From positions 1 to 64,000 of the forward strand of contig CAJQRC010000028.1 in assembly GCA_905480645.1 (NCBI GenBank): a DNA stretch of 64,000 nucleotides, in the 5' to 3' direction. Positions 46,922-64,000 of this stretch are shown here, in pieces. A model generated the notes under the pieces. The model made no database searches. It was given only the letters and a program-made list of their open reading frames with translations, and was not told where the DNA came from. The position numbers were made by a program, and so were the translations under genes. The number at the start of each line of letters is the position of its first letter. Positions within the stretch are counted from its first letter, which is position 1. Origin of the DNA: an uncultured Tateyamaria sp. Lineage in GTDB: Bacteria; Pseudomonadota; Alphaproteobacteria; Rhodobacterales; Rhodobacteraceae.

Positions 46922-47839
46922 TCACAACTCATTAGCCCATGGTGGGTTAGCACCCGTCCGTGACACCGTAACGGCCGCTGTGCGATTGGCTGTGGTAAGC
47001 ATTTTAGTGAGTTTTTCATAGCTAAGTGTTTCTAGAACGCTAGGGGCCAATGCGTCTTCAGCCCGTAGAGTAGCCAGGCACGCTGCATTAAACGTATCAC
47101 CAGCACCAACAGTATCAATAATCTCAACTTTAGTTGCTGCAACATGGACTGGTTTTCTGCCTTTTATTAACGCAGTAGCTCCTGAGCTACCTTGGGTTAG
47201 CAAAAGGAGTTTTGGTCCCATAGCGAGAACAGCATGCCCTTTTTCAACAAGTGAAGCGTTCCCTTCTATCAGCCAGTTTATATCGTCATCTGAGAGTTTT
47301 ACGATATCAGCACGTATCAGTAGGGATTTCAAACGGCTACTATACGCAGTTTTATCTGTAATAAAACTTGGGCGAATATTCGGATCAATCATCACAAGCT
47401 TGTCTGCGGGCTGTGCCAATGCTATTTCTACTAGAGTATCGGCGACAGGCGGATTACAGAGGCTAATACCACCAAAAAAGATGGCTTCTGTATCATCAGG
47501 TAATGTTTTTAAGTCGGCAGTTGTGATTTTCCGTGTAGCAGTGTTGTCATCATAAAACGAATAAGTTGCTTGGCCATTCTCAAGATGTACAAACGCTAAT
47601 GTTGTGTTGCGATCATTGTGTACCGCATGGGCCGTGCTAACTCGGCTTGCAGCAAGTGCCGTTTTGATCATTAAGCCAAAAGGGTCAGATGATAGCCCCG
47701 TGATTAAACTGGTAGGAACGCCTAAGCGTCCTAATGCAACTGCTGTGTTTAATACAGCTCCACCGACATGCGGAACAAAGGTTGCGCCGTCTGGCTCAGA
47801 AATCATATCAATAAGCGCTTCACCGCAGCAAATGATCAT
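46922..47839 (-). CDS. PfkB-family fructokinase
   Basis: A 305-residue ribokinase-family kinase. The N-terminus (GEALIDMISEPDGATFVPHVGG) is typical of fructokinases and the catalytic site DTVGAGDTFNAACLA near residue 245 contains the Asp base and anion hole. It overlaps the frcK stop by 4 nt (ATGA) and ends the frcB-C-A-K operon, so it most probably makes fructose 6-phosphate from imported fructose. Confidence 0.92.
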   Translation of the reverse strand: MIICCGEALIDMISEPDGATFVPHVGGAVLNTAVALGRLGVPTSLITGLSSDPFGLMIKTALAASRVSTAHAVHNDRNTTLAFVHLENGQATYSFYDDNTATRKITTADLKTLPDDTEAIFFGGISLCNPPVADTLVEIALAQPADKLVMIDPNIRPSFITDKTAYSSRLKSLLIRADIVKLSDDDINWLIEGNASLVEKGHAVLAMGPKLLLLTQGSSGATALIKGRKPVHVAATKVEIIDTVGAGDTFNAACLATLRAEDALAPSVLETLSYEKLTKMLTTANRTAAVTVSRTGANPPWANEL

Positions 47840-48471
47840 TTGGGATTTCTCGTGAGCTTAATATCGGCGAACTGTTCGTTAGTTATAATAAAGTCAGCAT
47901 TTCGCAAATCATTATCTATTGCACGGATCTCAGCATCTGCTTTGGTTAAGCCTTGATCTAGCCATCGCTTTATGAGCCTTTTTTTCAAAACATCGCGCGA
48001 TATCGCCAGAGAAATTGTAAGTGACCAATGTTTCGAAAGTCCTTGCCAAGGCTGGTTTTTTAGCAAAACGTAGTTGCCCTCAATTACAACTGTTTTAACG
48101 TCTACATTGACTCGACCTGCTCCCGCTATTGCAATGTCTTGGCCGCGATCAAAAAGAGGATAAATGACCGCCTCATCTGATTGTAGTGCTGCAACCAAAC
48201 GAACAAAACCAGTAGCGTCAAAAGTTTGTGGTGCGCCTTTTTTTTCGCGATTTCCATCTTCCTTTAATAGTCTATTATCGAGGTGGAACCCGTCCATTGG
48301 TACTACAGCTGTTTTTTCATCCTGAGCATTTAGCAGACCGGCTAAATGCTCAGCGGTTGTAGATTTTCCACTACCTGGTGGACCAGAAATTGCTATCAAC
48401 CGCCGATGAGGACCAAGCGGAGCTTGGATAATTCTTTCGCAGATTGCATTTAATGTCAGTTCAGGCTGCAC
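47836..48471 (-). CDS. frcK: FrcK-like P-loop kinase of the fructose ABC operon
   Basis: A 211-residue nucleotide/uridine-kinase-like P-loop protein with Walker A SGPPGSGKST near residue 29. The substrate-lid stretch has MDGFHLDNRLL, and a VIEGNYVLL strand follows. It matches FrcK of the rhizobial frcBCAK operon in position and type; the physiological substrate is uncertain. It overlaps frcA by 11 nt and the fructokinase by 4 nt. Confidence 0.85.
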   Translation of the reverse strand: MQPELTLNAICERIIQAPLGPHRRLIAISGPPGSGKSTTAEHLAGLLNAQDEKTAVVPMDGFHLDNRLLKEDGNREKKGAPQTFDATGFVRLVAALQSDEAVIYPLFDRGQDIAIAGAGRVNVDVKTVVIEGNYVLLKNQPWQGLSKHWSLTISLAISRDVLKKRLIKRWLDQGLTKADAEIRAIDNDLRNADFIITNEQFADIKLTRNPK

Positions 48472-49228
48472 GGTCAGGTTCAGCTGCGCCGGTCATATAA
48501 GAAACTGCATCAGACATTGAGTGATCTTTGGGATCAATCACTGTCAGTCTTTTACCAAGGCGATGAATGTGAATACGGTCAGCTACTTCGAATACATGGG
48601 GCATGTTGTGGCTAATCAAAATAATTGGGATACCACGTGATTTAACATCTTGGATTAGTTCCAGAACTCTACGGCTTTCTTTTACCCCTAGTGCAGCAGT
48701 AGGTTCATCTAAAATAATAACTTTAGAGCCAAATACAGCTGCACGTGCTACCGCGACGCCTTGGCGCTGCCCTCCGGAAAGCGTTTCAACCGCTTGTTTT
48801 ATATTTTGAATTGTCATGAGCCCAAGCTCAGATAGCTTGTCTCGGGCAAACTTCTCCATTGCCGGACGATCGAGCTGACGAAAAACCCTACCCCTAATTC
48901 CGGACCTTAGTATTTCACGGCCCATAAACATGTTGTCTGCAATGGATAGTGCTGGGGACATCGCCAGTGTCTGGTACACAGTTTCTATTCCATGTTCACG
49001 CGCTTGAATCGGTGAGGTGAAGTTAACCCTTTCTCCATCCAGATAAACTTCACCTTCATCAGGAATAACCGCTCCTGAAATAGCTTTTATTAATGTGGAT
49101 TTCCCAGCTCCATTGTCGCCAATTACACCTAGGATCTCGCCTGGATACAGCTCAAAGTCGCAATGGTCTAAAGCAGTTACGCGACCATAATGTTTAGTGA
49201 GACCAACAGCTTTTAAGATAGGTTCCAT
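48461..49228 (-). CDS. frcA: Fructose ABC transporter ATP-binding protein
   Basis: A 255-residue single-domain sugar ATPase with Walker A GDNGAGKST, signature LSGGQRQGVAVARA and Walker [13 protein letters not shown]. Its ATG shares one base with the frcC stop (TAATG), and its end overlaps frcK by 11 nt. It resembles the single-domain XylG of the xylose operon. Confidence 0.94.
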   Translation of the reverse strand: MEPILKAVGLTKHYGRVTALDHCDFELYPGEILGVIGDNGAGKSTLIKAISGAVIPDEGEVYLDGERVNFTSPIQAREHGIETVYQTLAMSPALSIADNMFMGREILRSGIRGRVFRQLDRPAMEKFARDKLSELGLMTIQNIKQAVETLSGGQRQGVAVARAAVFGSKVIILDEPTAALGVKESRRVLELIQDVKSRGIPIILISHNMPHVFEVADRIHIHRLGKRLTVIDPKDHSMSDAVSYMTGAAEPDRAA

Positions 49229-50307
49229 TATGCGGCTGCCTTTCTAATCCATTGGTCAACTGTAGTCGCTCCGATGATCAACACCCCAATTAATAAAAAA
49301 GTCCATTGCGGGTCGGCCCCATACATCCGTAGCCCCAATTCAAATACGCCGACAATAAGTGCCCCAAACAGTGCTCCAAGTATGGAGCCGCGTCCACCAA
49401 ATAGTGATATACCACCAATAACGACTGCCGTAATTGATTGTATGTTTCCTATAACACCTGTCGTTGCTGACGGAGAAACAGAACCAAACCTACCTATCAT
49501 TACCCATGCTGCAAAGCCACAAATTAGTCCGACAACGGCATACACAGAGATAATTGTTCCTTTAACGTTGACGCCTGCAAGTTCCGCGGCCTCTGGGTCA
49601 TCGCCAACTGCGTAGACGTGCCTGCCCCAAGCGGTATGGGTCAGTACATAGGTAAGTAGGGCAAATAATATCACCATGAAGATCACACCGAGAGTGAACG
49701 TTGCGCCGGCAAATTTCAAGGTATGTCCAAACATTTGCAACATTGGCGCTTGTGCTTCAATATCTTGAGATCGGATTGTTTCGTTCGCTGAATATATATA
49801 ATTTGCAGCAAGGACGATCTGCCACATCCCAAGCGTAACAATAAAAGGGGGTAGTTTTACCTTTGCCACAAGCCATCCACTGGCAGCTCCAATAGCTGTT
49901 CCAGCAACTAATCCAATAGGGATAGAAATAATGGCTGGAAATCCATAGCGAAAGGTAAATTGTCCCATAACTACAGAGCAAAGCACTGCGATTGCACCGA
50001 CACTTAAATCAATACCGGCTGTGAGGATTATAAGGCTTTGCGCGGCAGCGAGAACGCCAACGATCTGCACCTGCTGCAAAATTAATGTGAGTGCAAATGG
50101 GGAAAAAAACTTATTTCCTACCAAAATTGCGAAGACGCCCAATGACATAACCAATACGATTAATGGTACGAGTGCAGGGTTTTCATGCAATAAATGTTGC
50201 ACTTTATCCATGAAGCTGCGCTTGTTATTATCGAAATCTACAACATAATCAGCAGCTTCTGTCAGGTTGGATTCGTAATCCTGACTCTTTGGAGGTGTCT
50301 TTGACAT
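49228..50307 (-). CDS. frcC: Fructose ABC transporter permease
   Basis: A 359-residue permease of the ribose-type class, with about nine or ten hydrophobic segments. Conserved stretches are TAGIDLSVGAIAVL and YAVGDDPEAAELAGV. The start at 50307 (MSKTPPKS) has AGGA 9 nt upstream; a longer in-frame start at 50400 would lie in the intercistronic hairpin. The last base is shared with the frcA start (TAATG). Confidence 0.93.
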   Translation of the reverse strand: MSKTPPKSQDYESNLTEAADYVVDFDNNKRSFMDKVQHLLHENPALVPLIVLVMSLGVFAILVGNKFFSPFALTLILQQVQIVGVLAAAQSLIILTAGIDLSVGAIAVLCSVVMGQFTFRYGFPAIISIPIGLVAGTAIGAASGWLVAKVKLPPFIVTLGMWQIVLAANYIYSANETIRSQDIEAQAPMLQMFGHTLKFAGATFTLGVIFMVILFALLTYVLTHTAWGRHVYAVGDDPEAAELAGVNVKGTIISVYAVVGLICGFAAWVMIGRFGSVSPSATTGVIGNIQSITAVVIGGISLFGGRGSILGALFGALIVGVFELGLRMYGADPQWTFLLIGVLIIGATTVDQWIRKAAA

Positions 50308-50376
50308 GGACAGAGTTCCTAGACTGAGTAGGTGAAATAAATTTAGTTGTTTTGTGGTGATGAAATTTATTTGGGT

Positions 50377-50402
50377 GAATGGGCGGACGATGCCGCCCAT
50401 TC
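50377..50402 (-). terminator. Intercistronic stem-loop after frcB
   Basis: A perfect 10-bp stem GAATGGGCGG / CCGCCCATTC with a 6-nt loop lies about 20 bp past the frcB stop and 70 bp before frcC, without a T-tract. Like the xylF hairpin, it may give excess binding-protein mRNA over permease mRNA. Confidence 0.75.
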
Positions 50403-50421
50403 TTATTTCAACCTATCAGCG

Positions 50422-51441
50422 TTAGCCCCAGCAGCGTGATTTTCCTCTAGCTACTGAGATTGAATCCACGCCTTTGACTTCTTTGTCTGTGACCAGTGCA
50501 ACGCCTGTGTCAAAAAATGACTTACCAGGTGTGTTTTCTGGTTTTGTGCCATCCTTTGCCCATGCCGCAATTGCCTCGACGCCTAGTGAGGCCATCAATA
50601 GCGGATATTGCTGGCTAGTGGCACCGATTACGCCGGTTTCTACGTTTTTCACGCCTGGGCAACCGCCATCAACAGATACTATCAAGACGTCTTTCTCACG
50701 CCCAATCGATTTTAACGCTTCGTAGGCGCCAGCAGCAGCAGGTTCGTTGATTGTGTATACCACATTGATGCCAGGATCTATGGCTAGCAGGTTTTCCATA
50801 GCGCGACGGCCGCCTTCTTCATTGCCGGCAGTAACGTCATGACCGACAATCCGTGGGTCATCTTCATCACCCCATTTCCCTGGATCTTTGATGTCTATAC
50901 CAAATCCTGTCAGGAAGCCTTGATCACGTAGCACGCCGACGGATGGCTGGCTAATGGCAAGATCGAGCATGCCAATCTTAGCGTTTGCAGCATCTGCGCC
51001 AAGCTGGGCTGCAGCCCATTTACCACCGAGTTCGCCAGCGAGAAAATTATCAGTAGCAAAGGTTGCGTCTGCAGCATCAATGGGTTCGAGTGGGGTGTCT
51101 AAAGCAATGACCAGTAAACCGGCATCCCGTGCTTGTTTAACGGACGTAGTAATCGAAGATGTGTCGGACGCAGTTAACAGAATACCGTCGGCACCATCTG
51201 CAATACATGTTTCGATCGCCTGTACTTGGGTTTCGTGATCCCCATCAACTTTACCGGCATATGTTTTAAGTGTGATGTCGAGTTCTTTTGCTTTTTTTGT
51301 CGCGCCTTCTTTCATTTTTACAAAGAAAGGGTTTGTGTCTGTTTTTGTGATCAAGCAAGCAGAAATAGAGTGGCTGCCTGCTAAAGCCGCTCCTGCCATC
51401 GATGTGATGGCAAGTGTTGAGCTTAAAAGTAGTCTCTTCAT
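50422..51441 (-). CDS. frcB: Fructose ABC transporter, periplasmic binding protein
   Basis: A 339-residue binding protein of the ribose-type family. The signal peptide (core [18 protein letters not shown]) ends near residue 21. The mature part has [20 protein letters not shown], typical of Frc[25 protein letters not shown] lies in the ligand cleft region (quoted in part of the family's C-lobe: [17 protein letters not shown]). The start at 51441 has GGGAG 6 nt upstream. It is first in the frc operon and divergent from the broken ROK regulator. Confidence 0.93.
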
Positions 51442-51538
51442 TGTTTTCTCCCAAAAGGTTATAGTTTGCAACGCGTAATAGCACGAAGACTAACTGAAGT
51501 AAAAAAGACCCGATTCTCCGTTGAAGTCAATTATCAAA

Positions 51539-51594: not shown

Positions 51595-52803
51595 ATGACA
51601 TTGAAACGCGCATGCAATTTGTCTGGTGGTATTAATTCAGACAGGTTTGCGCGCTTATAATGAGCGATTATTGATATCTGTTTTACATCGAAATGGTGCG
51701 ATGGCCGGAGTAGAGCTTGCCCGGAGGACCGGTCTTTCTTTACAAACAACGTCAGTGATTTTGCGAAAATTGGAACGGGATGGTTTTTTGCGGCGCTGTG
51801 ATCCACTGAAAGGATCTGGTAAAGTTGGTATACCTTCTGTGCCGTTTGATTTTGATCCTGATGGTGTTCTTTCATGGGGTCTTAAAATTGGGCGTCGTAG
51901 TGCTGATTTGTTAGTACTCGATTTGAAGGGGGGCGTCTGAAAACAACTGCGGCAGAAATACAATTATCCGATGCCTGATAATATTTTTAGTTTTTTGGTG
52001 GATGGATACGCGACCTTGAAAGCAGAATTTCCTGACAAAACTTGGGCCCGACTTTGTGGGTTGGTAATAGCGGCGCCCTTCGAGCTATGGAACTGGCATG
52101 AATTAGCTGGTGTACCCGCTTCAGATTTTGCCGCATGGCGCAGGGTAAGTTTTCAGGATGAGGCTGCGCAAATTACCAACCTACCGGTTGATGTCGTGAA
52201 TGATGCTACAGCTGCCTGTCGCGCTGAGCATGTATTTGGTCGCGGACGTAATTTTCGTGATTATGTATACTTTTTTTATTGGGGCATTTGTTGGGGGGAA
52301 TTGTGCTTGACTACTCAGTTTTTGAAGTTGACCAAAGAAATGCAGGTGCTTTTGGACCGCTTCCCGTTGCGGATATCACGGGAAAGTAAGGCCAGTTAAC
52401 AGACCTAGGTTCGCTTCGGGGGCTTGAGTTTCGTCTTGCGAAAAGTGGTCTTGACCCCCAACAATTATGGAAAAGGCCTCAAAATTGGTCTGATTTTGAT
52501 GAATACGTACAGCCTTGGTTAGAACAAACTGCAGGCGCACTGGCTTACGCCAGTATTTCGTCGTGCTCTGTTATTGATTTTGAAGCAGTAATTATTGATG
52601 GGGCTATGCCGTGTTCTTTGCGAGAAAAATTAGTTGACATGATCCGCTTGCGCTTGGGCAACCAAGATACACGTGGTTTAGTCGGTCCCAATATTGTGGA
52701 AGGAACGGTGGGTGATAGAGCGCGGAAAATAGGCGCGGCAGTAGGGCCAATCGTAAGCCAGTTTCTTTTGGATCGAACATCCTCACTTTTTGACCAGCAT
52801 TAA
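51595..52803 (+). pseudogene. Degenerate ROK-family regulator of the fructose operon (frcR)
   Basis: A strong start (GGAGG at 51583-51587, ATG at 51595) opens the expected ROK N-terminus MTLKRACNLSGG. The frame is then broken by an extra T near 51637. It continues as a normal helix-turn-helix (VELARRTGLSLQTTSVILRK) in the next frame to a TGA at 51938-51940. After this stop the same frame resumes the ROK domain (NYPMPDNIFSFLVDG, VDVVNDATAACRAEHVFGRG). Extra bases in the T7 run (52271-52277) and the G6 run (52293-52298) shift it twice more. An in-frame TAA at 52387-52389 follows, and the last frame ends at 52803 (GAAVGPIVSQFLLDR). Three indels plus two stops show decay, unless the assembly is poor. 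Confidence 0.9.
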
Positions 52804-53929: not shown

Positions 53930-55054
53930 TTAAACGCTGAGGCAGGGCTGCATCCATTGCTCAGGGTTTACAGATTGACCTGTTCGAGCACTTTGTTGTG
54001 CAGCAAGTCCTATAGCTACAGCCGCCCATCCATCTGACAGGCTCACCTCCACTTTGTTAGTGTCTCCACGAACTAATGCAGCGAACTTTTGGTGCTGATA
54101 AAATGTTGCCCCATTATGATCACCTGCTTCCAATAATTTAGAATCTACCACAACTTTTCGAATTTCTGGCCCCTTTGGATTGCGTGGGCTTGTGACCAAT
54201 TTTGCCACAGGAGGTGTGCCAAGATGTTCAGGCCAAAACCGGCCTGGACCCGGGACATAGGCCTCGACTTTACCGCATGGTCCCACTGCAGATAATTCTT
54301 CTTGATATGTGCTGCCTTCTGCAAACATGCATAATTCTAACATCCCGCGTGCGCCATTATCAAAGTCTACTATAACATAACCATTATCGATAATATCTGG
54401 AGTTTCACCCGCGTAAGTTTCGCTCAGATGATTAACATCCTGGGAGGCGCTGGCCATTACTCGGACTGGCTCAGCATTCAATACAAACCGCATTAAATCA
54501 AAGAAATGACAACATTTCTCAACAAAGGTTCCCCCTGTAAAACGGTTAAAACGGTTCCAATCCCCCACTTTTTTTAAAAATGGAAATCTGTGTTCTCGAA
54601 TCGAAATCATTTTTATTCCACCTGTTGTTTTGTTGGCCTTTTCGAGGAAGTGGGAGATGACAGGCATGTAGCGATATTCCATTGCGACCCAAATAGGCGA
54701 AGGATAATTTCTACGAATTTCTGTGAGATGAGTAGTATTTTCTGGGCAAGTAAACAGTGGTTTCTCCACCATTAATGGAAGTGGCCGGGTTTCCATGATA
54801 GCCATTATTTGCTCAACATGGCGGAAATTGGGACTGATGATGAGCAGACAATCAAGATTTGGCTCTGCCAATAAAGCTTTGATAGTATCAGCTCTTTTTG
54901 CAGTTGGTGTAATTGCCTGTGCAAGACTTGCCATTTTTGGATCAGGGTCAAAAAAAATGGTGACACTGGCATTCGGCAACAAGGAAATATTACGCATGTG
55001 CTCTTGTCCCATCATGCCACATCCAATCAGGCCATAGTTAACGTGTTTTGCCAT
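53930..55054 (-). CDS. Gfo/Idh/MocA-family oxidoreductase, candidate NAD-dependent sulfoquinovosidase
   Basis: A 374-residue NAD(P)-dependent oxidoreductase. The Rossmann motif GCGMMG is at residues 11-16, the family EKP motif at 97-99 and a FTGGTFVEKCCHFFDLMR segment at about 172-189 supplies Lys180 and His183. The start at 55054 has GGGAGG 6 nt upstream; an earlier in-frame start lies in the GntR gene. It follows the GntR regulator by 11 nt. Members of this superfamily forming GH188 act as NAD-dependent sulfoquinovosidases. The neighbouring monooxygenase set makes that role attractive, but it is inference; sugar or inositol dehydrogenase is the alternative. Confidence 0.88.
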   Translation of the reverse strand: MAKHVNYGLIGCGMMGQEHMRNISLLPNASVTIFFDPDPKMASLAQAITPTAKRADTIKALLAEPNLDCLLIISPNFRHVEQIMAIMETRPLPLMVEKPLFTCPENTTHLTEIRRNYPSPIWVAMEYRYMPVISHFLEKANKTTGGIKMISIREHRFPFLKKVGDWNRFNRFTGGTFVEKCCHFFDLMRFVLNAEPVRVMASASQDVNHLSETYAGETPDIIDNGYVIVDFDNGARGMLELCMFAEGSTYQEELSAVGPCGKVEAYVPGPGRFWPEHLGTPPVAKLVTSPRNPKGPEIRKVVVDSKLLEAGDHNGATFYQHQKFAALVRGDTNKVEVSLSDGWAAVAIGLAAQQSARTGQSVNPEQWMQPCLSV

Positions 55055-55065
55055 GTGGAACCTCC

Positions 55066-55776
55066 CTACTTCAGCCGTTGCACATAAACAGCACGCTTGT
55101 GATCGAACCACGTGCGTGAAAATTCAATTGGGATGACTGAAGGCCCCCAACTAAGGCGTTCAATGTAACCAACAGTCTTTCCCGGAGCCTCTGGGAACGT
55201 CTTTGGGGCCCACTCAGGGATTTGCCCAAGACCTACACGGTCCTCAGCGCGCTGAATCCATATTCCAAGATCTTCGCGGTAGGTGACATATAACGATTCA
55301 GATATTTTGTTTTTTGATATAACTCCTGCATTTGCGTCTAACCAAATTTCTTCCAAGCCTACAATTGTTTTATTAAGGGAGCGAACTCGGCGAATTCGGG
55401 TGCCCTTGTCAGATGTTCCAAATGCTAAAAAATTTTGTGGTTTGGTAAGTATTCTAATATCGAGGACCTCTGCGTGAGGTAATCCGCCTCCCTCTAACAA
55501 TTCCAGACGAAACATAGCATAAATAGTGCCTGTATCACCGTCGGTACGAATATAGTTTCCAGAACCTTGAACACTTTCAATCAGGCCTTTTATGGCCATA
55601 TTCTTTAATGCCTTGCGCAATGTCCCGACTGATACTTTGAATTTAGATGCCATATCTCTTTCAGGCGGCAATCGTTCACCGTTGATGAGCCTTCCAGCGA
55701 CTATATCTCGCGTCAATAGTTCAGCGATCTGTACATAGATTGGCAAAGACTGGTGAGATTGATGTGACGAGGGCAT
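55066..55776 (-). CDS. GntR-family regulator with UTRA domain
   Basis: A 236-residue HutC-type regulator. The winged helix covers about residues 10-75 (RLPPERDMASKFKVSVGTLR). The ligand-binding UTRA domain follows to the end. It is divergent from the LLM monooxygenase across 100 bp that contains an ATTATTG / CAATAAT palindrome, and co-directional with the oxidoreductase. It probably senses a sugar or sugar derivative and controls both transcripts. Confidence 0.9.
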   Translation of the reverse strand: MPSSHQSHQSLPIYVQIAELLTRDIVAGRLINGERLPPERDMASKFKVSVGTLRKALKNMAIKGLIESVQGSGNYIRTDGDTGTIYAMFRLELLEGGGLPHAEVLDIRILTKPQNFLAFGTSDKGTRIRRVRSLNKTIVGLEEIWLDANAGVISKNKISESLYVTYREDLGIWIQRAEDRVGLGQIPEWAPKTFPEAPGKTVGYIERLSWGPSVIPIEFSRTWFDHKRAVYVQRLK

Positions 55777-55812
55777 GCGAATTTAAAAATTTTCATAATT
55801 GCAAATTGATAC

Positions 55813-55831
55813 ATTATTGATTTACAATAAT
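55813..55831. promoter_or_regulatory. Putative GntR operator between divergent transcripts
   Basis: Arms ATTATTG and CAATAAT flank the 5-bp spacer ATTTA, 37 bp upstream of the regulator start and 48 bp upstream of the monooxygenase start. A GATAC repeat flanks it on both sides. Position and symmetry suggest the binding site of the UTRA regulator. Confidence 0.5.
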
Positions 55832-55878
55832 CACAGTGATACGCAAGAGCAAGTTAATCGCTTTCAAAGGTTTTGAAT

Positions 55879-57033
55879 ATGACAGTTGTCCCTATTACTT
55901 CAGATGGCCTTGATGCTATTGAGGTATCATGGTTTTCTGCACTTTGCTCAGATGACTATGAGTTTTTAGGTGTACCAGATGGCGCTCTGCGCTCAAGCTG
56001 GATGCATTGCTCTGAAATCGTGAAAGAAGCTGAAGTGCAAGGGTTTCGAAATATTCTTTGCCCATCATCTTATCAAGTTGGGCAAGATACATTATCGTTT
56101 GTTGCTGGTTGTGCACCTATTACGAACAAAATTAATATGTTGGCTGCAGTTCGCTGTGGTGAAATGCAGCCTATCATGCTGGCTCGAACAATTGCGACAC
56201 TTGATCATATGTTAGAAGGGCGCTTGACGTTAAATGTTATTTCATCTGATTTTCCAGGAGAGGTTGCTGACAGCGAACTACGGTATCAGCGTTCACGCGA
56301 AGTAGTTGAGATACTCAAGCAGGCTTGGACGCAGGAAGAGATTAACTATCATGGCCAGATCTACAATTTTGATAATGTCTCGACAGATCCAGCAAGGCCC
56401 TATCAGTCTGGTGGTCCTTTGCTTTATTTTGGTGGTTACTCACGTCCAGCTTTAGAACTTTGTGGGCAACATTGTGACGTTTACCTAATGTGGCCAGAGC
56501 CGATAGAAAACCTCAAAAAAAGAATGCATGCCGTAAACAAGGTAGCCGAGAAGTATAAACGTACAATAGATTACGGTTTGCGAGTGCATACAATTGTCCG
56601 AGATACTGAAGTTGAGGCACGTGAATATGCAGACTATATCGTATCCAAGTTGGATGATGAACATGGCCAGATGATCCGCAATAGAGCTCACGACTCTATT
56701 TCTTTGGGGGTGGTGCACCAATCTAAAACGCGTGAAGAGGCAGATAAGTTTGGTTATGTCGAACCGAACCTCTGGACAGGAATTGGTCGAGCAAGATCTG
56801 GTTGTGGGGCGGCTTTGGTTGGTTCAGCCGATCAGGTTCTCAGTAAGATTGAAGAATATCGCAAGATGGGAATTCGCGCTTTTATTTTCTCTGGTTACCC
56901 TCACATTGACGAAGCTAAGCATTTTGGAAGTAAAGTTATGCCCTATTTGAAAACCTGCTCGTTTCCAAATGCTTATGGGCGGGTACCCACAAGTGCACCA
57001 GAAACCCCCCTCGCTGTGGGAGTGCGAAGCTAA
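55879..57033 (+). CDS. LLM-class flavin-dependent monooxygenase (SsuD/SmoC type)
   Basis: A 384-residue luciferase-like (LLM) monooxygenase that uses reduced FMN and oxygen. Segments such as EVSWFSALCSDDYEFLGVPD, LRSSWMHC, RCGEMQPIMLARTIATLDHM and the C-terminal IFSGYPHIDEAKHFG are typical of alkanesulfonate monooxygenases (SsuD) and their sulfoquinovose-specific relative SmoC. The ATG at 55879 has AAAGG 8 nt upstream, better than a TTG at 55873. Its stop shares a base with the aldo/keto reductase start (TAATG). It would cleave a C-S bond releasing sulfite, if the substrate is a sulfonate; the substrate is inferred from context. Confidence 0.88.
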   Translation: MTVVPITSDGLDAIEVSWFSALCSDDYEFLGVPDGALRSSWMHCSEIVKEAEVQGFRNILCPSSYQVGQDTLSFVAGCAPITNKINMLAAVRCGEMQPIMLARTIATLDHMLEGRLTLNVISSDFPGEVADSELRYQRSREVVEILKQAWTQEEINYHGQIYNFDNVSTDPARPYQSGGPLLYFGGYSRPALELCGQHCDVYLMWPEPIENLKKRMHAVNKVAEKYKRTIDYGLRVHTIVRDTEVEAREYADYIVSKLDDEHGQMIRNRAHDSISLGVVHQSKTREEADKFGYVEPNLWTGIGRARSGCGAALVGSADQVLSKIEEYRKMGIRAFIFSGYPHIDEAKHFGSKVMPYLKTCSFPNAYGRVPTSAPETPLAVGVRS

Positions 57034-57923
57034 TGGATCGTGTTCAAATTTCTGATGATCTAAACTTTTCGCGTCTTGTCTATGGCATGTGGCGGATAGG
57101 CGATGATACCAATACTTCGGTTGGTTATGTAAAAGCGAAAATCCATGCATGTCTAGATCAGGGGATCACTACGTTTGATCAGGCAGATATTTATGGTGGA
57201 TATAACGCAGAGTCATTACTCGGCGAGATACTAAAGGCAGATCATGGTCTGATAGGGAAAATGGAAATCGTCACTAAATGTGATATTGTTGCACCCGTGG
57301 GCCGCTATGCAGATGCTCCAATTAAATATTATGATACCAGCCGAGCTCACATTGAAAAATCAGTTGAAAATTCTCTGCGAGATATGGCAATTGAGCAGAT
57401 TGACTTATTGCTTATACATAGACCCGATCCTTTTATGGATCACTATGAAACTGGTGCAGTTCTGGACGATCTTGTTGCTTCTGGGAAAGTGCGTGGTGTT
57501 GGGGTTTCAAATTTCCGACCATGGGATTGGAAGCTGTTGCAGTCAGGTATGAAATCTCAACTTTTGACTAATCAAATAGAGATAAGCCTTGCTGAGATTA
57601 CACCTTTCACCAATGGAGATATTACCTTTCATCAGCAGCACAACCAAAGACCAATGGCATGGTCACCTTTAGGTGGTGGAAATTTAATTTTAGGTGATAG
57701 TAACTTGCATAAATTGATGGATGAAATAGCTGGAGCTTACAATGTAGATCGCGCTGCTGTTGCGGTTGCATTTTTGCTTGCACATCCTGCTGGAATTTTA
57801 CCGATTTTAGGTACCAATAATTTAGAGCGGATCAAAAAAATTAATGATGCTAATCGGGTGGAAATCGATCGTGTTATTTGGTTTCGATTGTACGAAGCAG
57901 CGCTGGGGCATGAAGTGGCTTAA
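57033..57923 (+). CDS. Aldo/keto reductase (SmoB-like candidate)
   Basis: A 296-residue NAD(P)H-dependent (alpha/beta)8 aldo/keto reductase of the YdhF-like type. The catalytic tetrad is visible as Asp49, Tyr54 (DQADIYGGY), Lys82 (VTKCD) and His129 (LLLIHRPDP). It overlaps the monooxygenase and flavin reductase genes by one base each. In the sulfo-SMO pathway the matching enzyme SmoB reduces the 6-oxo-glucose made by the monooxygenase to glucose; this role is inference. Confidence 0.88.
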   Translation: MDRVQISDDLNFSRLVYGMWRIGDDTNTSVGYVKAKIHACLDQGITTFDQADIYGGYNAESLLGEILKADHGLIGKMEIVTKCDIVAPVGRYADAPIKYYDTSRAHIEKSVENSLRDMAIEQIDLLLIHRPDPFMDHYETGAVLDDLVASGKVRGVGVSNFRPWDWKLLQSGMKSQLLTNQIEISLAEITPFTNGDITFHQQHNQRPMAWSPLGGGNLILGDSNLHKLMDEIAGAYNVDRAAVAVAFLLAHPAGILPILGTNNLERIKKINDANRVEIDRVIWFRLYEAALGHEVA

Positions 57924-58453
57924 TGACAATGCAGAGCTCAGATAAGCCATCTAATTTTCTAGCTGATAAATTAGGTGGTAGACATTTGCGTGATGTTTTT
58001 GGTCGTTTTGTGACTGGTATCACTGTAATTACTGCGCCAAGTTCTAGTGGCCCAATTAGCATAGTTGCTAACAGTTTTTCATCTGTATCACTAGATCCTG
58101 CTTTAGTGTTATGGTCTGCGGACCGGTTGGCAAAAAGATATAATTATTTTGAAGCGGCGGATCACTACGCTATTCACGTGTTGTCGGTAGAACAAAGCGG
58201 TCTTTGCAAACAAGTGTTGCGCAGTGCTTATGCTCTAAATGAATATCCACACCTTCTGAATGCTGATGGTGTCCCATTAATTGATCACTGCCTTGCACGG
58301 CTGGAATGCCGTAGAATAGCTGCTCATGACGCCGGTGATCACGTTATTATTGTGGGGCAGGTTCAAAGGACTGAAATACGTGATGGCGCACCACTTACAT
58401 TTTTTTCAGGGGATTATGGTACGTTTACTAGTCTGGAAGGGGAATTGGATTAA
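57923..58453 (+). CDS. Flavin reductase (FMN reductase partner of the monooxygenase)
   Basis: A 176-residue flavin-reductase-like domain protein. The N-terminus reads LRDVFGRFVTGITVITA. It is followed by NSFSSVSLDPALVLWS, the FMN-binding signature. The enzyme would use NAD(P)H to reduce FMN for the LLM protein encoded two genes upstream. Overlap of one base with the preceding gene shows tight co-expression. It resembles SmoA in size and type. Confidence 0.9.
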   Translation: MTMQSSDKPSNFLADKLGGRHLRDVFGRFVTGITVITAPSSSGPISIVANSFSSVSLDPALVLWSADRLAKRYNYFEAADHYAIHVLSVEQSGLCKQVLRSAYALNEYPHLLNADGVPLIDHCLARLECRRIAAHDAGDHVIIVGQVQRTEIRDGAPLTFFSGDYGTFTSLEGELD

Positions 58454-58558
58454 ACTTTAGTGGAATATTTATGCAGAAATTAAACATCGTAACAATTGGA
58501 AATACATTTAGCGCTATGCTGTTGAAGCCAGTTTTATATTGAGAAAAAAAGTGTTCAT

Positions 58559-59140
58559 ATGAGCGTGCTACTTATGGTTTTAAAAACAATCAGCATGATT
58601 AATTTGAAGTTGCTGAGATTGGGGTGTTGGGTAGGGATACTGGCTATGTCTGTAATGGTAGCAGCAATCTTAATTCAAGTTGTTGCGCGCTACCTTTTTA
58701 ATAATGCGTTGCCCTGGCCGGATGAAGCTGCGAGGTTTTGCATGTTGTGGATGACGGGTCTAATGGCACCAACTGCTTTTCGGCGTGGTAGCTTCGTTGC
58801 TCTTGATATAATAACTAGTTTTTTGTCTAAACAAATTGCAACAATTTTAAATTTGTTACTGCTTTTGACTTCATTGCTTATCTTGCTCATTGCTGTTCAG
58901 ATTGGCTGGAAAGAAGTCACAGGTTTTGGTGGGAAGTTTGCAACAGCTTCACTTTATTTGCCAAGCTTTGATGGATGGTTCCGGATTCCGCGGAGTTGGA
59001 TGATGCTGTCATTACCAGTTGGCATTGTTTTACTGATTAGCGTAAACATAGAGATGATAATTCGTAAAATTATCTTATTTATGGGTGGAGAGCAAGCACT
59101 GCTCGCACTTGATGTTGCTGAGACCAAAGGCGCTGACTGA
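58559..59140 (+). CDS. TRAP transporter small permease (DctQ)
   Basis: A 193-residue membrane protein with four hydrophobic segments, the small membrane subunit of a TRAP transporter. The conserved region around WPDEAARFCMLWMTGLMAP is typical of DctQ. It overlaps dctM by one base (TGATG). It starts 105 bp after the flavin reductase and is co-directional, so the TRAP system probably belongs to the same operon. Confidence 0.9.
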   Translation: MSVLLMVLKTISMINLKLLRLGCWVGILAMSVMVAAILIQVVARYLFNNALPWPDEAARFCMLWMTGLMAPTAFRRGSFVALDIITSFLSKQIATILNLLLLLTSLLILLIAVQIGWKEVTGFGGKFATASLYLPSFDGWFRIPRSWMMLSLPVGIVLLISVNIEMIIRKIILFMGGEQALLALDVAETKGAD

Positions 59141-60612
59141 TGCTCCTATGGTTTCTCCCACTTTTTTTGGTTTTCTTACTTGTCGGTTTACCAGTATTTT
59201 TTGGTTTGCTGGCTGCACCAGGCTTGTTGTTGTGGTTGAATGGACAGGAAAAAGATATCACGCTGCTTTATCGGAACGTTTACAATGGTATGGATAGCTT
59301 CCCATTGATGGCTATCCCGTTCTTTATGCTTGCTGGTGAATTGATGAATAAGGGTGGTATAACCATCCGTCTGGTCCAAATCTCACAGGCCTTGATGGGG
59401 CATTTACGGGGTGGTTTGGCTCAGGTTAATGTGCTGTCCTCCATTCTTTTTGCGGGCCTATCAGGTTCTGCGGTCGCGGACACGTCTGCGCTTGGTTCAA
59501 TGCTGATACCTGCTATGGAAAAAGAGGGCTATACTCGTCGCTTTGCTGCGGCCATTACTGCTGCTAGTTCAGTAATTGGACCAATCATTCCGCCTTCCGG
59601 GATTATGATTATCTATGCTTACGTAATGGGTGAAAGTGTAGCCGCACTGTTTCTAGCTGGTATTGTGCCGGGTATTCTCGTGGGTGTGGGCCTAATGGTT
59701 ATGGTTCGATTAACCGCCGATCATTACGATCTGCCTGAAGCTAAACGGGTCGCATTTGATGGTGTTGAACTTGGTAACTTGGAAAAATGGGTATCTTTTT
59801 TACTGATCCGGCTGAACCTTGGGCTTGTAATCTGGGCAATAATTCCAATGCCAAAAACAAGCGTCTTATTACTATGGGTTTCTTTTTTGGCATCGGTTGT
59901 AATTATACATGCGCTATTGCTCGCGTTGCGTACTCAAGTAAGTAATGAATTTCGAATGATCTGCAAAAGGGCAGTAGTACCACTGCAGACACCGGTACTT
60001 ATTTTGGGTGGTATTTTAGGCGGAATATTCACTCCGACTGAAGCTGCGGCGGTTGCAGTCGCCTACGCCATATTTGTAGCGTTTTTTGTCTTGCGAACCA
60101 TGTCATTAAAAGACTTACCTGACATTCTAAGTAGAGCCGGTCTGACGTCTGCTGTTGTTCTTTTGTTAGTTGGTGCAGCCATGGCGTTTAAGACCGTTGT
60201 TGCTCTCTCCTACGCACCACAGCTCTTAGCCGACTATATCCTTACACTTTCAGAAAATCCGTTGATACTTTTGTTTTTGATCAACTTGTTACTATTTTTC
60301 GTGGGAATGTTTCTTGATGCTGGGCCAGCCATAATTATCCTTGGCCCAATACTTGCTCCTATATTCACAGATCTGGGTGTTGACCCTATCCACTTTGCCA
60401 TAATTATGAGTGTGAATTTGACTGTTGGACTGGCGACGCCACCGATGGGGCTAGTTCTTTTTGTCGCAGCGGCGGTCAGCCAGGAGAAAGTTGAAACCAT
60501 ATCCAAGGCAATTTTGCCTTTCCTATTAGTTGAAATAGCGGTTATTTTTTTGATTACCTACGTTCCTGCAATTTCGATGACGATCCCCCGTTTGACGGGG
60601 TTTGCTAACTAA
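59140..60612 (+). CDS. TRAP transporter large permease (DctM)
   Basis: A 490-residue membrane subunit, larger than the usual 425-440. Twelve or more hydrophobic segments are visible, with the conserved VLSSILFAGLSGSAVADTSA and VIGPIIPPSGIMIIYAY regions. A longer central loop (about residues 195-280) accounts for the extra length. It forms the Na-coupled importer with DctQ and DctP. Confidence 0.93.
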   Translation: MLLWFLPLFLVFLLVGLPVFFGLLAAPGLLLWLNGQEKDITLLYRNVYNGMDSFPLMAIPFFMLAGELMNKGGITIRLVQISQALMGHLRGGLAQVNVLSSILFAGLSGSAVADTSALGSMLIPAMEKEGYTRRFAAAITAASSVIGPIIPPSGIMIIYAYVMGESVAALFLAGIVPGILVGVGLMVMVRLTADHYDLPEAKRVAFDGVELGNLEKWVSFLLIRLNLGLVIWAIIPMPKTSVLLLWVSFLASVVIIHALLLALRTQVSNEFRMICKRAVVPLQTPVLILGGILGGIFTPTEAAAVAVAYAIFVAFFVLRTMSLKDLPDILSRAGLTSAVVLLLVGAAMAFKTVVALSYAPQLLADYILTLSENPLILLFLINLLLFFVGMFLDAGPAIIILGPILAPIFTDLGVDPIHFAIIMSVNLTVGLATPPMGLVLFVAAAVSQEKVETISKAILPFLLVEIAVIFLITYVPAISMTIPRLTGFAN

Positions 60613-60645
60613 ACTTTAAATTATGTAACTGGAGGAAATGACATA

Positions 60646-61704
60646 ATGATCAAGACAACGATTAAAACACTGGCGGTGGCGGCTTTAGTTGCTGGTTCTG
60701 CTGTCATGGTGTCTGCGCAAGAGTATAAAATACGTGCAACCGCTAATTCGAACACAAACGATGAAGACTATGATGGTCTTGTGGTGTTTAAGAATTATGT
60801 CGAAGCATCGTCTAACGGCGCCATCGCAGTAGAACTGTTCATTGGAACACAGCTTTGTTCTAACGGTGCAGAGTGTCTGCAAGGTGTAGCAGATGGCTCA
60901 ATTGACGTTTATATCTCTACGTCGGGTGGTGCAGCGGGTATTTTCCCATATGTACAGGTATTAGATTTACCTTACTTGATGGCCGATGACCGGATAGCAG
61001 AACACGTTCTCTCGGGTGATTTTACACGTACCATGCGTGAAATGGCCCTTGAAGATTCTGATAATATGATCCGATTGATGACCATTGGTAACACTGGCGG
61101 TTGGCGAAATTTTGCAAATACTAAACGGCGTGTTGCGGAACCTAATGACATGGATGGCCTAAAAATTCGAACTGTTGTAGCTGATCTGCCTCAAGAATTA
61201 GTGAAAGCGCTCGGTGCTTCTCCGACTCCAATTCCTTGGCCAGAGCTGTTTACGTCGTTTCAGACTGGTGTCGTAGAAGGTTCCAAGAACGGCATCACCG
61301 ACATAATGGGTATGAAGTTTCCAGATGCTGGCCTACAATATGTCACTTTAGACGGTCACGCCTACATGGGTGCCTTATGGTGGATGTCAAATGCTAAATT
61401 TATGTCGATGCCAGAAGACATGCGGCGTGTTGTTGTAGATGGTTTCTACGCCCTACAGCAGGCTACTTTTGCATCACCTAAGCGTAAGTCGATTCAAGCT
61501 TATGAGGATTTTGTAGCCGGTGGTGGTGATCTTTATGTGCCAACTCCCGAGCAAAAGGCTGCATTCACTGAAGCAGCAGCCCCAGTTTATGATTGGTTTA
61601 AAATCAACGTTGCACGTGGACCAGAAATATTTGATGCACTGACTACAGCTGTTGCTGTGGCTGACACAGACGTAAACGCAGCTCGAGATGCAGACCTAAA
61701 ATAA
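60646..61704 (+). CDS. TRAP transporter substrate-binding protein (DctP family)
   Basis: A 352-residue periplasmic binding protein. The signal peptide (core TLAVAALVAGSAVMVSA) ends at about residue 24. A conserved GLKIRTV and an upstream NTGGWRNFANTKR stretch are typical of DctP, whose conserved Arg binds an acid group. GGAGG lies 10 nt upstream. A rho-independent terminator follows at 61729. In the sulfoquinovose hypothesis it would bind SQ or its glycoside. Confidence 0.93.
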   Translation: MIKTTIKTLAVAALVAGSAVMVSAQEYKIRATANSNTNDEDYDGLVVFKNYVEASSNGAIAVELFIGTQLCSNGAECLQGVADGSIDVYISTSGGAAGIFPYVQVLDLPYLMADDRIAEHVLSGDFTRTMREMALEDSDNMIRLMTIGNTGGWRNFANTKRRVAEPNDMDGLKIRTVVADLPQELVKALGASPTPIPWPELFTSFQTGVVEGSKNGITDIMGMKFPDAGLQYVTLDGHAYMGALWWMSNAKFMSMPEDMRRVVVDGFYALQQATFASPKRKSIQAYEDFVAGGGDLYVPTPEQKAAFTEAAAPVYDWFKINVARGPEIFDALTTAVAVADTDVNAARDADLK

Positions 61705-61728
61705 ATGATTTCTGCATTATAGAAAGTG

Positions 61729-61755
61729 AAGGCTGCCTTTAGTGAGGCGGCCTTT
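61729..61755 (+). terminator. Rho-independent terminator of the TRAP operon
   Basis: Stem AAGGCTGCC / GGCGGCCTT with one G-T pair and an 8-nt loop lies 25 bp after the dctP stop; a short T run and ATTTTG follow. It would end the operon from 55.9 kb. Confidence 0.8.
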
Positions 61756-61846
61756 GGTCATTTTGGGATTAATTATTTACGAGCAATCAGTTTAAAGTCC
61801 ATGATGCATTTCTGATGGCTTGATAAATTCTGTGCTACCTTATGTC

Positions 61847-62719
61847 TTAGGTAAATTTTCGGAATAATTTTGTTTGATCAAATATGGTTTCAAGTACCTC
61901 CATGCGATTCTTTGTTCTGCCCCATGTCAAATTTTGAACCTCTGAAATCATAGTTTCGAGTAATAAAAGTGGCGTCGCTGCTGAATCCCAAGCTGATGGA
62001 GCAATAATGCGACTACTTAAAATGATATCAGCCAACAGGTGTATTGGGGACCGCCATTGATCTGTAAATAAAATCAATTTTGCGCCCTTATCGTGTGCAA
62101 TCTCGGCTAGTTTAAGTGTATTATTCTCATACCGGCGCATATCAAAAATAATAAAAACATCATCCTCTTTTACATCCAGTAGGTACTGTGGCCATGTATT
62201 AGAAGTTGATTGAATATGAGTAATCTTCGATCGAATAACTTGCATATGCATAAAGAGATATTCGGCCAATGTATGGGTTACGCGGCCCCCAACAATATAC
62301 AGGTGGTTTTCGATATTGGCGCTCATAGAGCAGGCTTTATCGAAATCATCAGGATCAATTTGGTTTAGAGTGTGTCGAATGTTATTTATCACGGCATCAG
62401 TAAATCTGTTTAAAATATGCTCAGATGGAGCGCTTTCTGCCCAAATATTGTGCTTTGCAATGGGACTATTTGCCTTGGCCTTTAACTCTTCACGCAACTC
62501 TGTTTGAAATTCAGGATAGCCTTTGTAACCGAGTTTTTGAACCATTCGCGCAACTGTTGGTACAGAAACTGCAGCACCCTTTGCCAAAACGCTCAGGGAA
62601 CCCAAGCCTGATGCTGGGTAGTTTTCCAAGATTGAATGTGCCAACTGCCGCTCCGCTCGTGTGAGTTCATCCAGCTTGTTCTGAATGCGATCTGAGATCG
62701 TCAACGTTGCTTTTATCAT
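61847..62719 (-). CDS. MurR/RpiR-family regulator (HTH_6 + SIS domain)
   Basis: A 290-residue regulator. The N-terminal helix-turn-helix (LGSLSVLAKGAAVSVPTVARMV) covers about residues 40-80, and a SIS sugar-isomerase-like domain at about 125-260 binds phosphosugars. It converges on the terminator of the TRAP operon and is divergent from the amidohydrolase gene across about 118 bp, which it probably controls. Confidence 0.9.
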   Translation of the reverse strand: MIKATLTISDRIQNKLDELTRAERQLAHSILENYPASGLGSLSVLAKGAAVSVPTVARMVQKLGYKGYPEFQTELREELKAKANSPIAKHNIWAESAPSEHILNRFTDAVINNIRHTLNQIDPDDFDKACSMSANIENHLYIVGGRVTHTLAEYLFMHMQVIRSKITHIQSTSNTWPQYLLDVKEDDVFIIFDMRRYENNTLKLAEIAHDKGAKLILFTDQWRSPIHLLADIILSSRIIAPSAWDSAATPLLLLETMISEVQNLTWGRTKNRMEVLETIFDQTKLFRKFT

Positions 62720-62837
62720 CGGTGTACCTCGTCTTTGATAAAAATATAACAGCTGAAGGACAGGTGAAATTATTGATTACAAACATGTTGACAGTAAGTC
62801 GTTTTGGCAAGAGGCTAGTCGAATTGGAGGGGTGTTT

Positions 62838-63614
62838 TTGAGCGGCTTTGTTGATAAATTGGAACGCCATGCAATGGTAAAAAACACAAATGGGTCATCA
62901 TCCATAGTTATTGTATGTGAGCATGCCTCGTCTGATATTCCAGCTTCTTTTAATTCTTTGGGGGTTTCAAAAGAAGTGCGCAAAAGCCATGCAGCCTGGG
63001 ACCCAGGAGCTTTGGCTGTGTCTATACGGTTGTCAGAGCAACTAGATGCAGCATTGATCGCAGGCGCTGTGTCAAGATTGGTCTATGATTGCAATAGACC
63101 GCCAGATGCACCTGATGCAATGCCATCAAAAAGTGAAATTTTTGATATTCCAGGGAATGCACACCTGTCACAGTCTGAACGAGATTCGCGTGTAAAAACA
63201 TTTTACCGACCTTTTCAATTGGCAGTGAGACGTTTGATGGAACGTGTGAATGATCCAATTTTAGTAACTGTACATAGTTTTACACCTGTTTATCATGGTA
63301 AAAAGAGATCAGTGGAGATCGGTATTTTGCATGATAAAGATGCACGCTTTGCAGACGCGATGTTGGAAACAGCCAATGACCATACCAATGCTATTGTCCG
63401 ACGGAATAAACCTTATGGGCCTGAAGATGGGGTGACACATACTTTAAAAGAACATGGCATTAATGGTGGTTATTATAACGTCATGTTGGAAATTAGAAAT
63501 GATTTAATAAAGACTACTCAGCAACAGGATTCTATGGCAAAGGTTATTGCGGGATGGATCGTTGATACTTGCATGGCTTTGAAAGTTTCAGGAAGCATTC
63601 AATGTCAAGAATGA
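62838..63614 (+). CDS. N-formylglutamate amidohydrolase family protein
   Basis: A 258-residue FGase-family hydrolase. The signature IVCEHASSDIPASFNSLG lies near residue 25, and VTVHSFTPVYHGKKR and the EIRNDLI stretch follow. The best start is a TTG at 62838, 7 nt after GGAGG; a GTG at 62832 is too close to that site. It overlaps the next dctQ by 13 nt (or by ATGA if a later ATG is used). N-formylglutamate hydrolysis links to histidine degradation, but in TRAP operons these enzymes may act on other amides. Confidence 0.85.
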   Translation: MSGFVDKLERHAMVKNTNGSSSIVIVCEHASSDIPASFNSLGVSKEVRKSHAAWDPGALAVSIRLSEQLDAALIAGAVSRLVYDCNRPPDAPDAMPSKSEIFDIPGNAHLSQSERDSRVKTFYRPFQLAVRRLMERVNDPILVTVHSFTPVYHGKKRSVEIGILHDKDARFADAMLETANDHTNAIVRRNKPYGPEDGVTHTLKEHGINGGYYNVMLEIRNDLIKTTQQQDSMAKVIAGWIVDTCMALKVSGSIQCQE

Positions 63615-64000
63615 TCCGAGCTTATATAGTTTTGATTGATGCAGTGAACTATCGTGTTGGTCGCCTCATCATGTATTTCATTTTTGTTTTGATGGGCATT
63701 TTGTTATGGTCATCGATAAGCAAAACATTTTTCTTACCATCTCTTTGGACGCTTGAAATGGCGCAGTTTGTGATGGTTGCTTATTATGTATTGGGTGGTC
63801 CTTATTCTATTCAACTCGGTTCAAATGTACGGATGGATCTGCTGTATGGTGACTGGTCGCAAAGCAAAAAAGCTTGGTTTGATTTGTTTACAGTCTTGTT
63901 GTTAATTTTCTACTTATGTGTTTTGCTTTATGGTGCAGTCAGCTCGGCAGCCTACTCATTTGGATACTGGGGTACAGAACCATTTAGTTTTTTTCTCAGC
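63602..64000 (+). CDS. TRAP transporter small permease (DctQ), C-terminus beyond window
   Basis: 133 codons are visible before the right edge. Four hydrophobic stretches are present or begun, with an LGGPYSIQLGSNVRMDLLY core as in DctQ of mannitol/chloroaromatic-type TRAP systems. Two starts are possible: ATG at 63602 with AGGA 8 nt upstream, or ATG at 63611 overlapping the amidohydrolase stop by ATGA. A large permease is expected just outside the window. Confidence 0.88.
   Translation, partial: MSRMIRAYIVLIDAVNYRVGRLIMYFIFVLMGILLWSSISKTFFLPSLWTLEMAQFVMVAYYVLGGPYSIQLGSNVRMDLLYGDWSQSKKAWFDLFTVLLLIFYLCVLLYGAVSSAAYSFGYWGTEPFSFFLS

Follow-up and report, generated by a model that had tools for sequence, protein, structure and literature searches.

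A sulfoquinovose monooxygenase cluster with a putative TRAP importer and a candidate GntR operator in a Roseobacter-type bacterium

We analysed a 64,000-nucleotide stretch of DNA from an uncultured Tateyamaria sp. (assembly GCA_905480645.1, contig CAJQRC010000028.1, positions 1 to 64,000; hereafter the window). An earlier note, made from the sequence alone, had proposed that positions 53,930 to 61,704 encode a possible sulfoquinovose (SQ) pathway linked to a tripartite ATP-independent periplasmic (TRAP) transporter. We consider it quite probable that the region is a complete oxidative SQ monooxygenase (sulfo-SMO) cluster of a Roseobacter-type bacterium in which the TRAP transporter imports SQ and/or SQ-glycerol, the importer being included in that estimate. 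SQ is an abundant sulfosugar of plants and algae. The sulfo-SMO pathway is also called sulfo-ASMO (SquD/SquF) in Novosphingobium; in Agrobacterium the ATP-binding cassette (ABC) system is named SmoEFGH and the sulfoquinovosidase belongs to glycoside hydrolase family 31 (GH31). The enzymes and the pathway are already known, and the new parts would be the importer assignment and the operator, both drawn from sequence comparison. The features of the region are as follows.

53930..55054, minus strand: sqgA, GH188 NAD-dependent sulfoquinovosidase of the Gfo/Idh/MocA fold, assigned from structure-sequence matches and SQ-binding residues
55066..55776, minus strand: gntR, GntR/UTRA regulator (PF00392, PF07702)
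55805..55825, plus strand: candidate operator ATTGATACATTATTGATTTAC between gntR and smoC, a conserved intergenic motif
55879..57033, plus strand: smoC, predicted sulfoquinovose monooxygenase dependent on reduced flavin mononucleotide (FMNH2), from identity to 7oh2 and 7olf
57033..57923, plus strand: smoB, aldo/keto reductase predicted to convert 6-dehydroglucose to glucose, from identity to 7bby
57923..58453, plus strand: smoA, NAD(P)H flavin reductase of the FerA/HpaC type (PF01613)
58559..59140, plus strand: DctQ, TRAP small permease (PF04290)
59140..60612, plus strand: DctM, TRAP large permease (PF06808)
60646..61704, plus strand: DctP, TRAP substrate-binding protein, proposed SQ/SQ-glycerol binder (PF03480; clamp residues R154, R175, N215 and W198)
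61727..61756, plus strand: terminator-like hairpin 3' of dctP, with 13 pairs and a weak T tract

Pfam assignments were consistent for all eight cluster genes. The smoC open reading frame (ORF) is listed at 55873-57033 from a TTG, and the ATG at 55879 fits the start of the solved homologues; the sqgA ORF is listed at 53930-55111 from a GTG, and alignment with homologues favours the in-frame ATG at 55054, giving 374 amino acids. The ORF coordinates bear out the one-base overlaps that the earlier note had described among the genes for the luciferase-like monooxygenase (LLM), the aldo/keto reductase and the flavin reductase, and the DctQ and DctM genes overlap in the same way. The divergent orientation of the GntR and Gfo/Idh/MocA genes, both on the minus strand, was also correctly described. 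The P, Q and M subunits of a TRAP transporter are all present (PF03480, PF04290 and PF06808), in the Q-M-P order given by the note; the terminator said to follow them is a terminator-like hairpin with a weak T tract, and a hairpin scan of the region found seven hairpins against a mean of 7.0 in shuffled sequence, thus no excess.

The monooxygenase scored 678 bits against 7olf (76.5% identity) and 668 bits against 7oh2 (74.9% identity), which we take to be SmoC of a Rhizobium and SmoC of Agrobacterium, respectively; their deposited names in the PDB are 'Methanesulfonate sulfonatase' and alkanesulfonate monooxygenase. Solved LLM relatives that are presumably SsuD and MsuD reached 179-189 bits, and dimethylsulfone monooxygenase reached 102 bits. 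The aldo/keto reductase scored 379 bits at 60.5% identity against 7bby/7bbz, of which we assume 7bby to be SmoB, with the next protein at 204 bits. The operon's flavin reductase, the smoA product, is an ordinary PF01613 member whose nearest solved relatives are of the FerA/HpaC type; no solved SmoA was recognised among its structure-sequence matches. A SmoC-type monooxygenase, an adjoining SmoB-type reductase and a flavin reductase thus stand in one operon and place it among sulfo-SMO clusters; according to the available text of a 2026 survey, genomes with SmoB and SmoC were scored as sulfo-SMO positive (PMC13372026).

The divergent Gfo/Idh/MocA gene is, as judged from its sequence, a GH188 NAD-dependent sulfoquinovosidase. 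Its product belongs to the GH188 sequences, scoring 534 bits against 8zn9, 342 bits against FlSqgA (8qc2) and 335 bits against ArSqgA (8qc3); no other structure exceeded 52 bits. The entry codes of the two named enzymes were taken from the available text of Kaur et al., 2023 (PMC10755693). Eight of nine named ArSqgA residues (K107, Y136, R166, L170, K172, E189, H193 and H321) are identical in the window's SqgA. These residues are described in the same partial text as contacting SQ or acting in catalysis, the sulfonate contacts being R166, L170 (through its backbone) and K172 (PMC10755693). No signal peptide was recognised by eye, and SqgA is probably cytoplasmic. A plain inositol-type dehydrogenase was rejected, the IolG match of 95.6 bits being far under its cut-off of 355. 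PF01055, the GH31 family, had no match in the 3.07 Mb genome assembly, with 6 of 14 control genomes matching. The earlier statement that no GH31 sulfoquinovosidase is seen therefore stands for the whole assembly; a missing sulfoquinovosidase was rejected, since the divergent gene is of the GH188 type. Marine Roseobacter bacteria carry GH188 near-universally in their sulfo-SMO clusters according to the accessible text of Kaur et al. (PMC10755693), so SqgA is part of a pathway already known.

The substrate was weighed on the same evidence. It is highly improbable that the monooxygenase is an SsuD/MsuD-type desulfonase of alkanesulfonates or methanesulfonate in a cluster that handles short sulfonates. 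The best NCBIfam model (alkanesulfonate monooxygenase, 244 bits, under its cut-off of 518) and the name under which 7olf was deposited point that way, but the protein lies far nearer to the SmoC entries than to the solved SsuD and MsuD (668-678 versus 179-189 bits), and its partner genes are SmoB-like and GH188, the latter acting on SQ glycosides; an SsuD/MsuD function was rejected on the bit scores. These scores and identities support the earlier proposal of the same chemistry as that of Agrobacterium SmoABC, and they did not place the protein among non-sulfonate LLM families, a clustering that the earlier note had named as telling against its pathway. There is only the slightest chance that the cluster acts on another sulfosugar, for example on sulfofucose or sulforhamnose glycosides. 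Sulfofucose catabolism is known in a Paracoccus, yet the route in the available text of PMC12421959 is of the Entner-Doudoroff type with an ABC transporter and not SmoC/SmoB/GH188, and the window's GH188 protein retains the eight residues for SQ contact or catalysis. Since SmoC, SmoB and GH188 all indicate SQ, the reservation of the earlier note that another sulfonate or a halogenated compound might be the substrate is now unlikely to apply.

Of 394 genomes from the family, 166 contain SmoC (E <= 1e-80), counting the one from which the window comes. Eighty of these 166 genomes contributed one neighbourhood each, of up to 20 kb; they were picked by hand, among the listed matches whose contig extended far enough (SmoC identity 73-83%), and do not form a random sample. 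GH188 was present in 78 of the 80, GntR in 78 (within 10 kb of smoC), SmoB in 78, SmoA in 75 and TRAP genes in 56. The full sqgA-gntR / smoCBA-TRAP set in canonical order recurs in 56 of these neighbourhoods from relatives, and the gene order is therefore not chance. A set of 80 named contigs, which partly repeats genomes of the neighbourhood sample, gave GH188 in 76, DctP in 54 and a TRAP permease in 57, several of these clusters being truncated at a contig edge. By SmoC identity the nearest named contigs were from Tateyamaria (82-86%), followed by other Roseobacter-type genera, although very near records may be missing from this ranking. The Ruegeria sp. TM1040 megaplasmid carries the same gene order, annotated gene by gene. 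The cluster is common in this bacterial group, and the pathway is of a known kind.

The importer assignment draws on the distribution of two transporter types across these genomes. TRAP genes with a DctP 66-89% identical to the window's occupied the same position in 56 of the 80 neighbourhoods, leaving a set of 24 genomes without TRAP genes at the smo cluster (the TRAP-less set). None of these 24 had a close relative of the window's DctP anywhere in the genome (E <= 1e-60). An ABC binding protein from one TRAP-less smo cluster (L050) then served as the query, and proteins of this type were found in 22 of the 24 TRAP-less genomes versus 2 of the 56 TRAP genomes (E <= 1e-60; Fisher p 2.6e-15, a statistic that ignores relatedness); ten of the 22 have it no more than 12 kb from smoC. 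The strongest argument that both systems serve a common purpose is this near mutual exclusion in gene content, which also supports the earlier idea of a TRAP importer replacing the ABC system. Because of the near exclusion, together with an operator shared across relatives (see below), the TRAP transporter is most likely an importer of SQ or SQ-glycerol. A Pfam scan of 10 of 185 downstream ORFs recognised ABC parts in L047, L050 and L098 and a di-haem peroxidase in L106; one ORF of L047 and those from L033 and L067 had no match. Genome G176 (L047) has neither a window-type TRAP transporter nor an L050-type binding protein; other ABC genes adjoin its smoCBA. Compared with solved binding proteins, two ABC binding proteins of TRAP-less genomes had best scores of 36 and 46 bits, none of them close.

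The gntR-smoC intergenic region contains the tandem repeat ATTGATRYANNATTGATNNAY, with two ATTGAT boxes spaced 11 bases start to start. Counted in 80 intergenic sequences (the window and those 79 of the 80 named contigs that had a GntR match), the operator was present in all 80 at two or fewer mismatches, with none in 74, one in 5 and two in 1; base-shuffled controls had it at one or no mismatch in 0 of 1600. The window's genome contains one exact site, that of this cluster, and one 1-mismatch site elsewhere (L202), near which none of the cluster or ABC queries matched. Among the TRAP-less genomes, 23 of 24 had at least one site at one or no mismatch, and in 22 of 24 a site lay upstream of smoC, at a distance of 46-110 bases in 21 and of 733 bases in one; the reversed pattern gave no site in the 24 genomes. 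The GntR protein is probably an SQ-responsive repressor, to judge from its sequence and setting.

Seven operator-like sites in the 24 TRAP-less genomes were away from smoC, and two genomes were informative. In G112, where smoC has no sqgA nearby, site L226 is located just upstream of an unlinked sqgA whose product is 55% identical to the window's, and site L231 upstream of the gene for an ABC binding protein that shares 57% identity with that of the L050 smo cluster, both on contigs other than that of smoC. In G271, where smoC has neither gntR nor sqgA nearby, an exact site (L211) precedes an unlinked gntR-sqgA pair. G112 and G271 are independent tests of the operator motif, with the predicted SQ regulon split over contigs in them. 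Two further 1-mismatch sites may mark regulon members or be chance occurrences: L230 in G112 faces a PF13407 sugar ABC binding protein of another class, and an ABC ATPase-like match at 36% identity is found ~1.1 kb from L228 in G271. Neither the cluster queries nor the ABC queries matched at the operator-like sites L227 and L229. TGcTAcGCAAG, a second conserved stretch, was seen in the intergenic region 55777-55878 and its relatives ~11 bases further toward smoC; it is possibly a promoter or a half-site.

The DctP protein was modelled with a mean predicted local distance difference test (pLDDT) score of 77.8 and a poor loop at 205-224. The top PDB match of this model by E-value was the isethionate-binding protein IseP (8t9t/8te9), at 23% identity. 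In the available text on IseP, Arg156, Arg177 and Asn217 are the sulfonate contacts and Trp200 forms the floor of the site (PMC11668362). By eye, these four residues align with R154, R175, N215 and W198 of DctP, which were invariant in an alignment of 32 rows out of 51 available smo-linked DctP proteins. The modelled clamp is thus compatible with a sulfonate ligand and is no proof of one; the window's DctP differs from IseP in its low identity (~23%) and in a ligand that would be far larger. C71 and C77 are also invariant in the 32 aligned rows and might form a disulfide.

Several points weigh against an SQ-importing TRAP system in a complete sulfo-SMO cluster. The IseP match combines 23% identity with a model of moderate quality whose loop 205-224 is poor; binders of sialic acid and of sugar acids rank close behind it, and 4p47 has a higher template modelling score (TM-score). 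Ser95, Asn98 and Tyr153 of IseP are not kept, their counterparts by eye being T92, G95 and G151. The Arg/Arg/Asn clamp is common to most carboxylate-binding TRAP proteins according to the partial text of PMC11668362, so it does not single out SQ. In the comparison of importers, the ABC query itself came from a TRAP-less cluster; the exclusion is incomplete, as 2 of the 24 TRAP-less genomes lack the ABC binding protein and 2 of the 56 TRAP genomes have it; and as the 12 kb around smoC do not include the binding protein in 12 of the 22 TRAP-less genomes that have it, some of these proteins may be paralogues of other function. The operator motif was derived from the same sequences in which it was counted, and at smoC itself a site is missing from two of the 24 TRAP-less genomes, G167 having none anywhere and G271 having its sites elsewhere. 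For SqgA, the ArSqgA residue that the paper numbers E163 corresponds to V176 in the chain; the adjoining E is conserved.

An alternative is a cluster whose enzymes degrade SQ while the downstream TRAP transporter imports a C4-dicarboxylate or another sugar acid and SQ enters by another way. We regard this as unlikely, though not negligibly so. The same clamp usually binds carboxylates (PMC11668362, available text), TRAP genes are common and the window's own genome has five further DctP-like matches. An unrelated transporter would not readily explain a 66-89% identical DctP at this position in 56 of the 80 neighbourhoods, nor the lack of a close DctP relative in all 24 TRAP-less genomes, 22 of which have the ABC binding protein instead. 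With the TRAP transporter as the SQ importer, the cluster would work as follows. SQ and/or SQ-glycerol would be taken up by the TRAP system; since GH188 needs NAD+ and has no signal peptide by eye, SQ-glycerol would enter intact. Cytoplasmic SqgA would then release SQ from the glycoside using catalytic NAD+, with glycerol set free from SQ-glycerol. SmoA is expected to supply FMNH2 to SmoC, which with O2 would split SQ into sulfite and 6-dehydroglucose, and SmoB would reduce 6-dehydroglucose to glucose. A molybdopterin oxidoreductase of the sulfite-oxidase family, with a molybdenum cofactor dimerisation domain, is encoded elsewhere in the genome and could oxidise the sulfite. The GntR/UTRA protein presumably binds the tandem ATTGAT operator and would be released by SQ or a derivative.

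Among known systems, the closest is sulfo-SMO of Agrobacterium tumefaciens (SmoABC): the monooxygenase and the aldo/keto reductase are 75% and 60% identical to the solved proteins, and a flavin reductase is in the operon. The window differs in having a TRAP rather than an ABC importer and GH188 rather than GH31; an SQ-glycerol ABC transporter and a sulfoquinovosidase are described for Agrobacterium in the available text of PMC9594981. The Roseobacter-clade sulfo-SMO clusters of Kaur et al. likewise contain GH188, and the window is probably a further member without essential difference (PMC10755693). The accessible text of that paper has no discussion of the importer or regulator, and its Figures 5c and S17 may show TRAP genes. 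Literature searches combining sulfoquinovose and TRAP found no TRAP importer for SQ, which may nonetheless be published, and the searchable literature yielded no importer or operator characterised for such clusters. There is no mention of 'TRAP' in the available text of the review PMC12890257 and the 2026 survey PMC13372026, and in that of PMC12421959, PMC11659671 and PMC11968277 'trap' appears as mass-spectrometry or column wording only.

SQ is produced at ~10 billion tons a year (PMC10755693), and its active degraders in water include Roseobacter bacteria (PMC13372026), as stated in the available parts of these papers. We lean towards a broader view in which Roseobacter bacteria most commonly take up the sulfolipid head group through a TRAP transporter, perhaps the first such system for a sulfosugar and one that may accept intact SQ-glycerol. 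An ABC system would be able to stand in for it under the same GntR operator, and the choice between ion-driven and ATP-driven uptake would be a module exchanged from one lineage to another. Two inexpensive handles for tests follow from the comparison: the near exclusion of TRAP and ABC, and the conserved operator, which can be used to find unlinked SQ genes.

On the upstream side of the cluster, two short adjoining frames at 51626-52399 (plus strand) resemble a disrupted ROK-family regulator, one being a fragment of a winged-helix domain and the other matching ROK weakly and in part; they lie beside a sugar ABC gene set at 47836-51471. Downstream, 61847-64000 encodes an RpiR regulator, an N-formylglutamate amidohydrolase-like protein and the apparent start of a second TRAP operon, past which a DctP-like match was found beyond the window at G000:C28:65699-66340.

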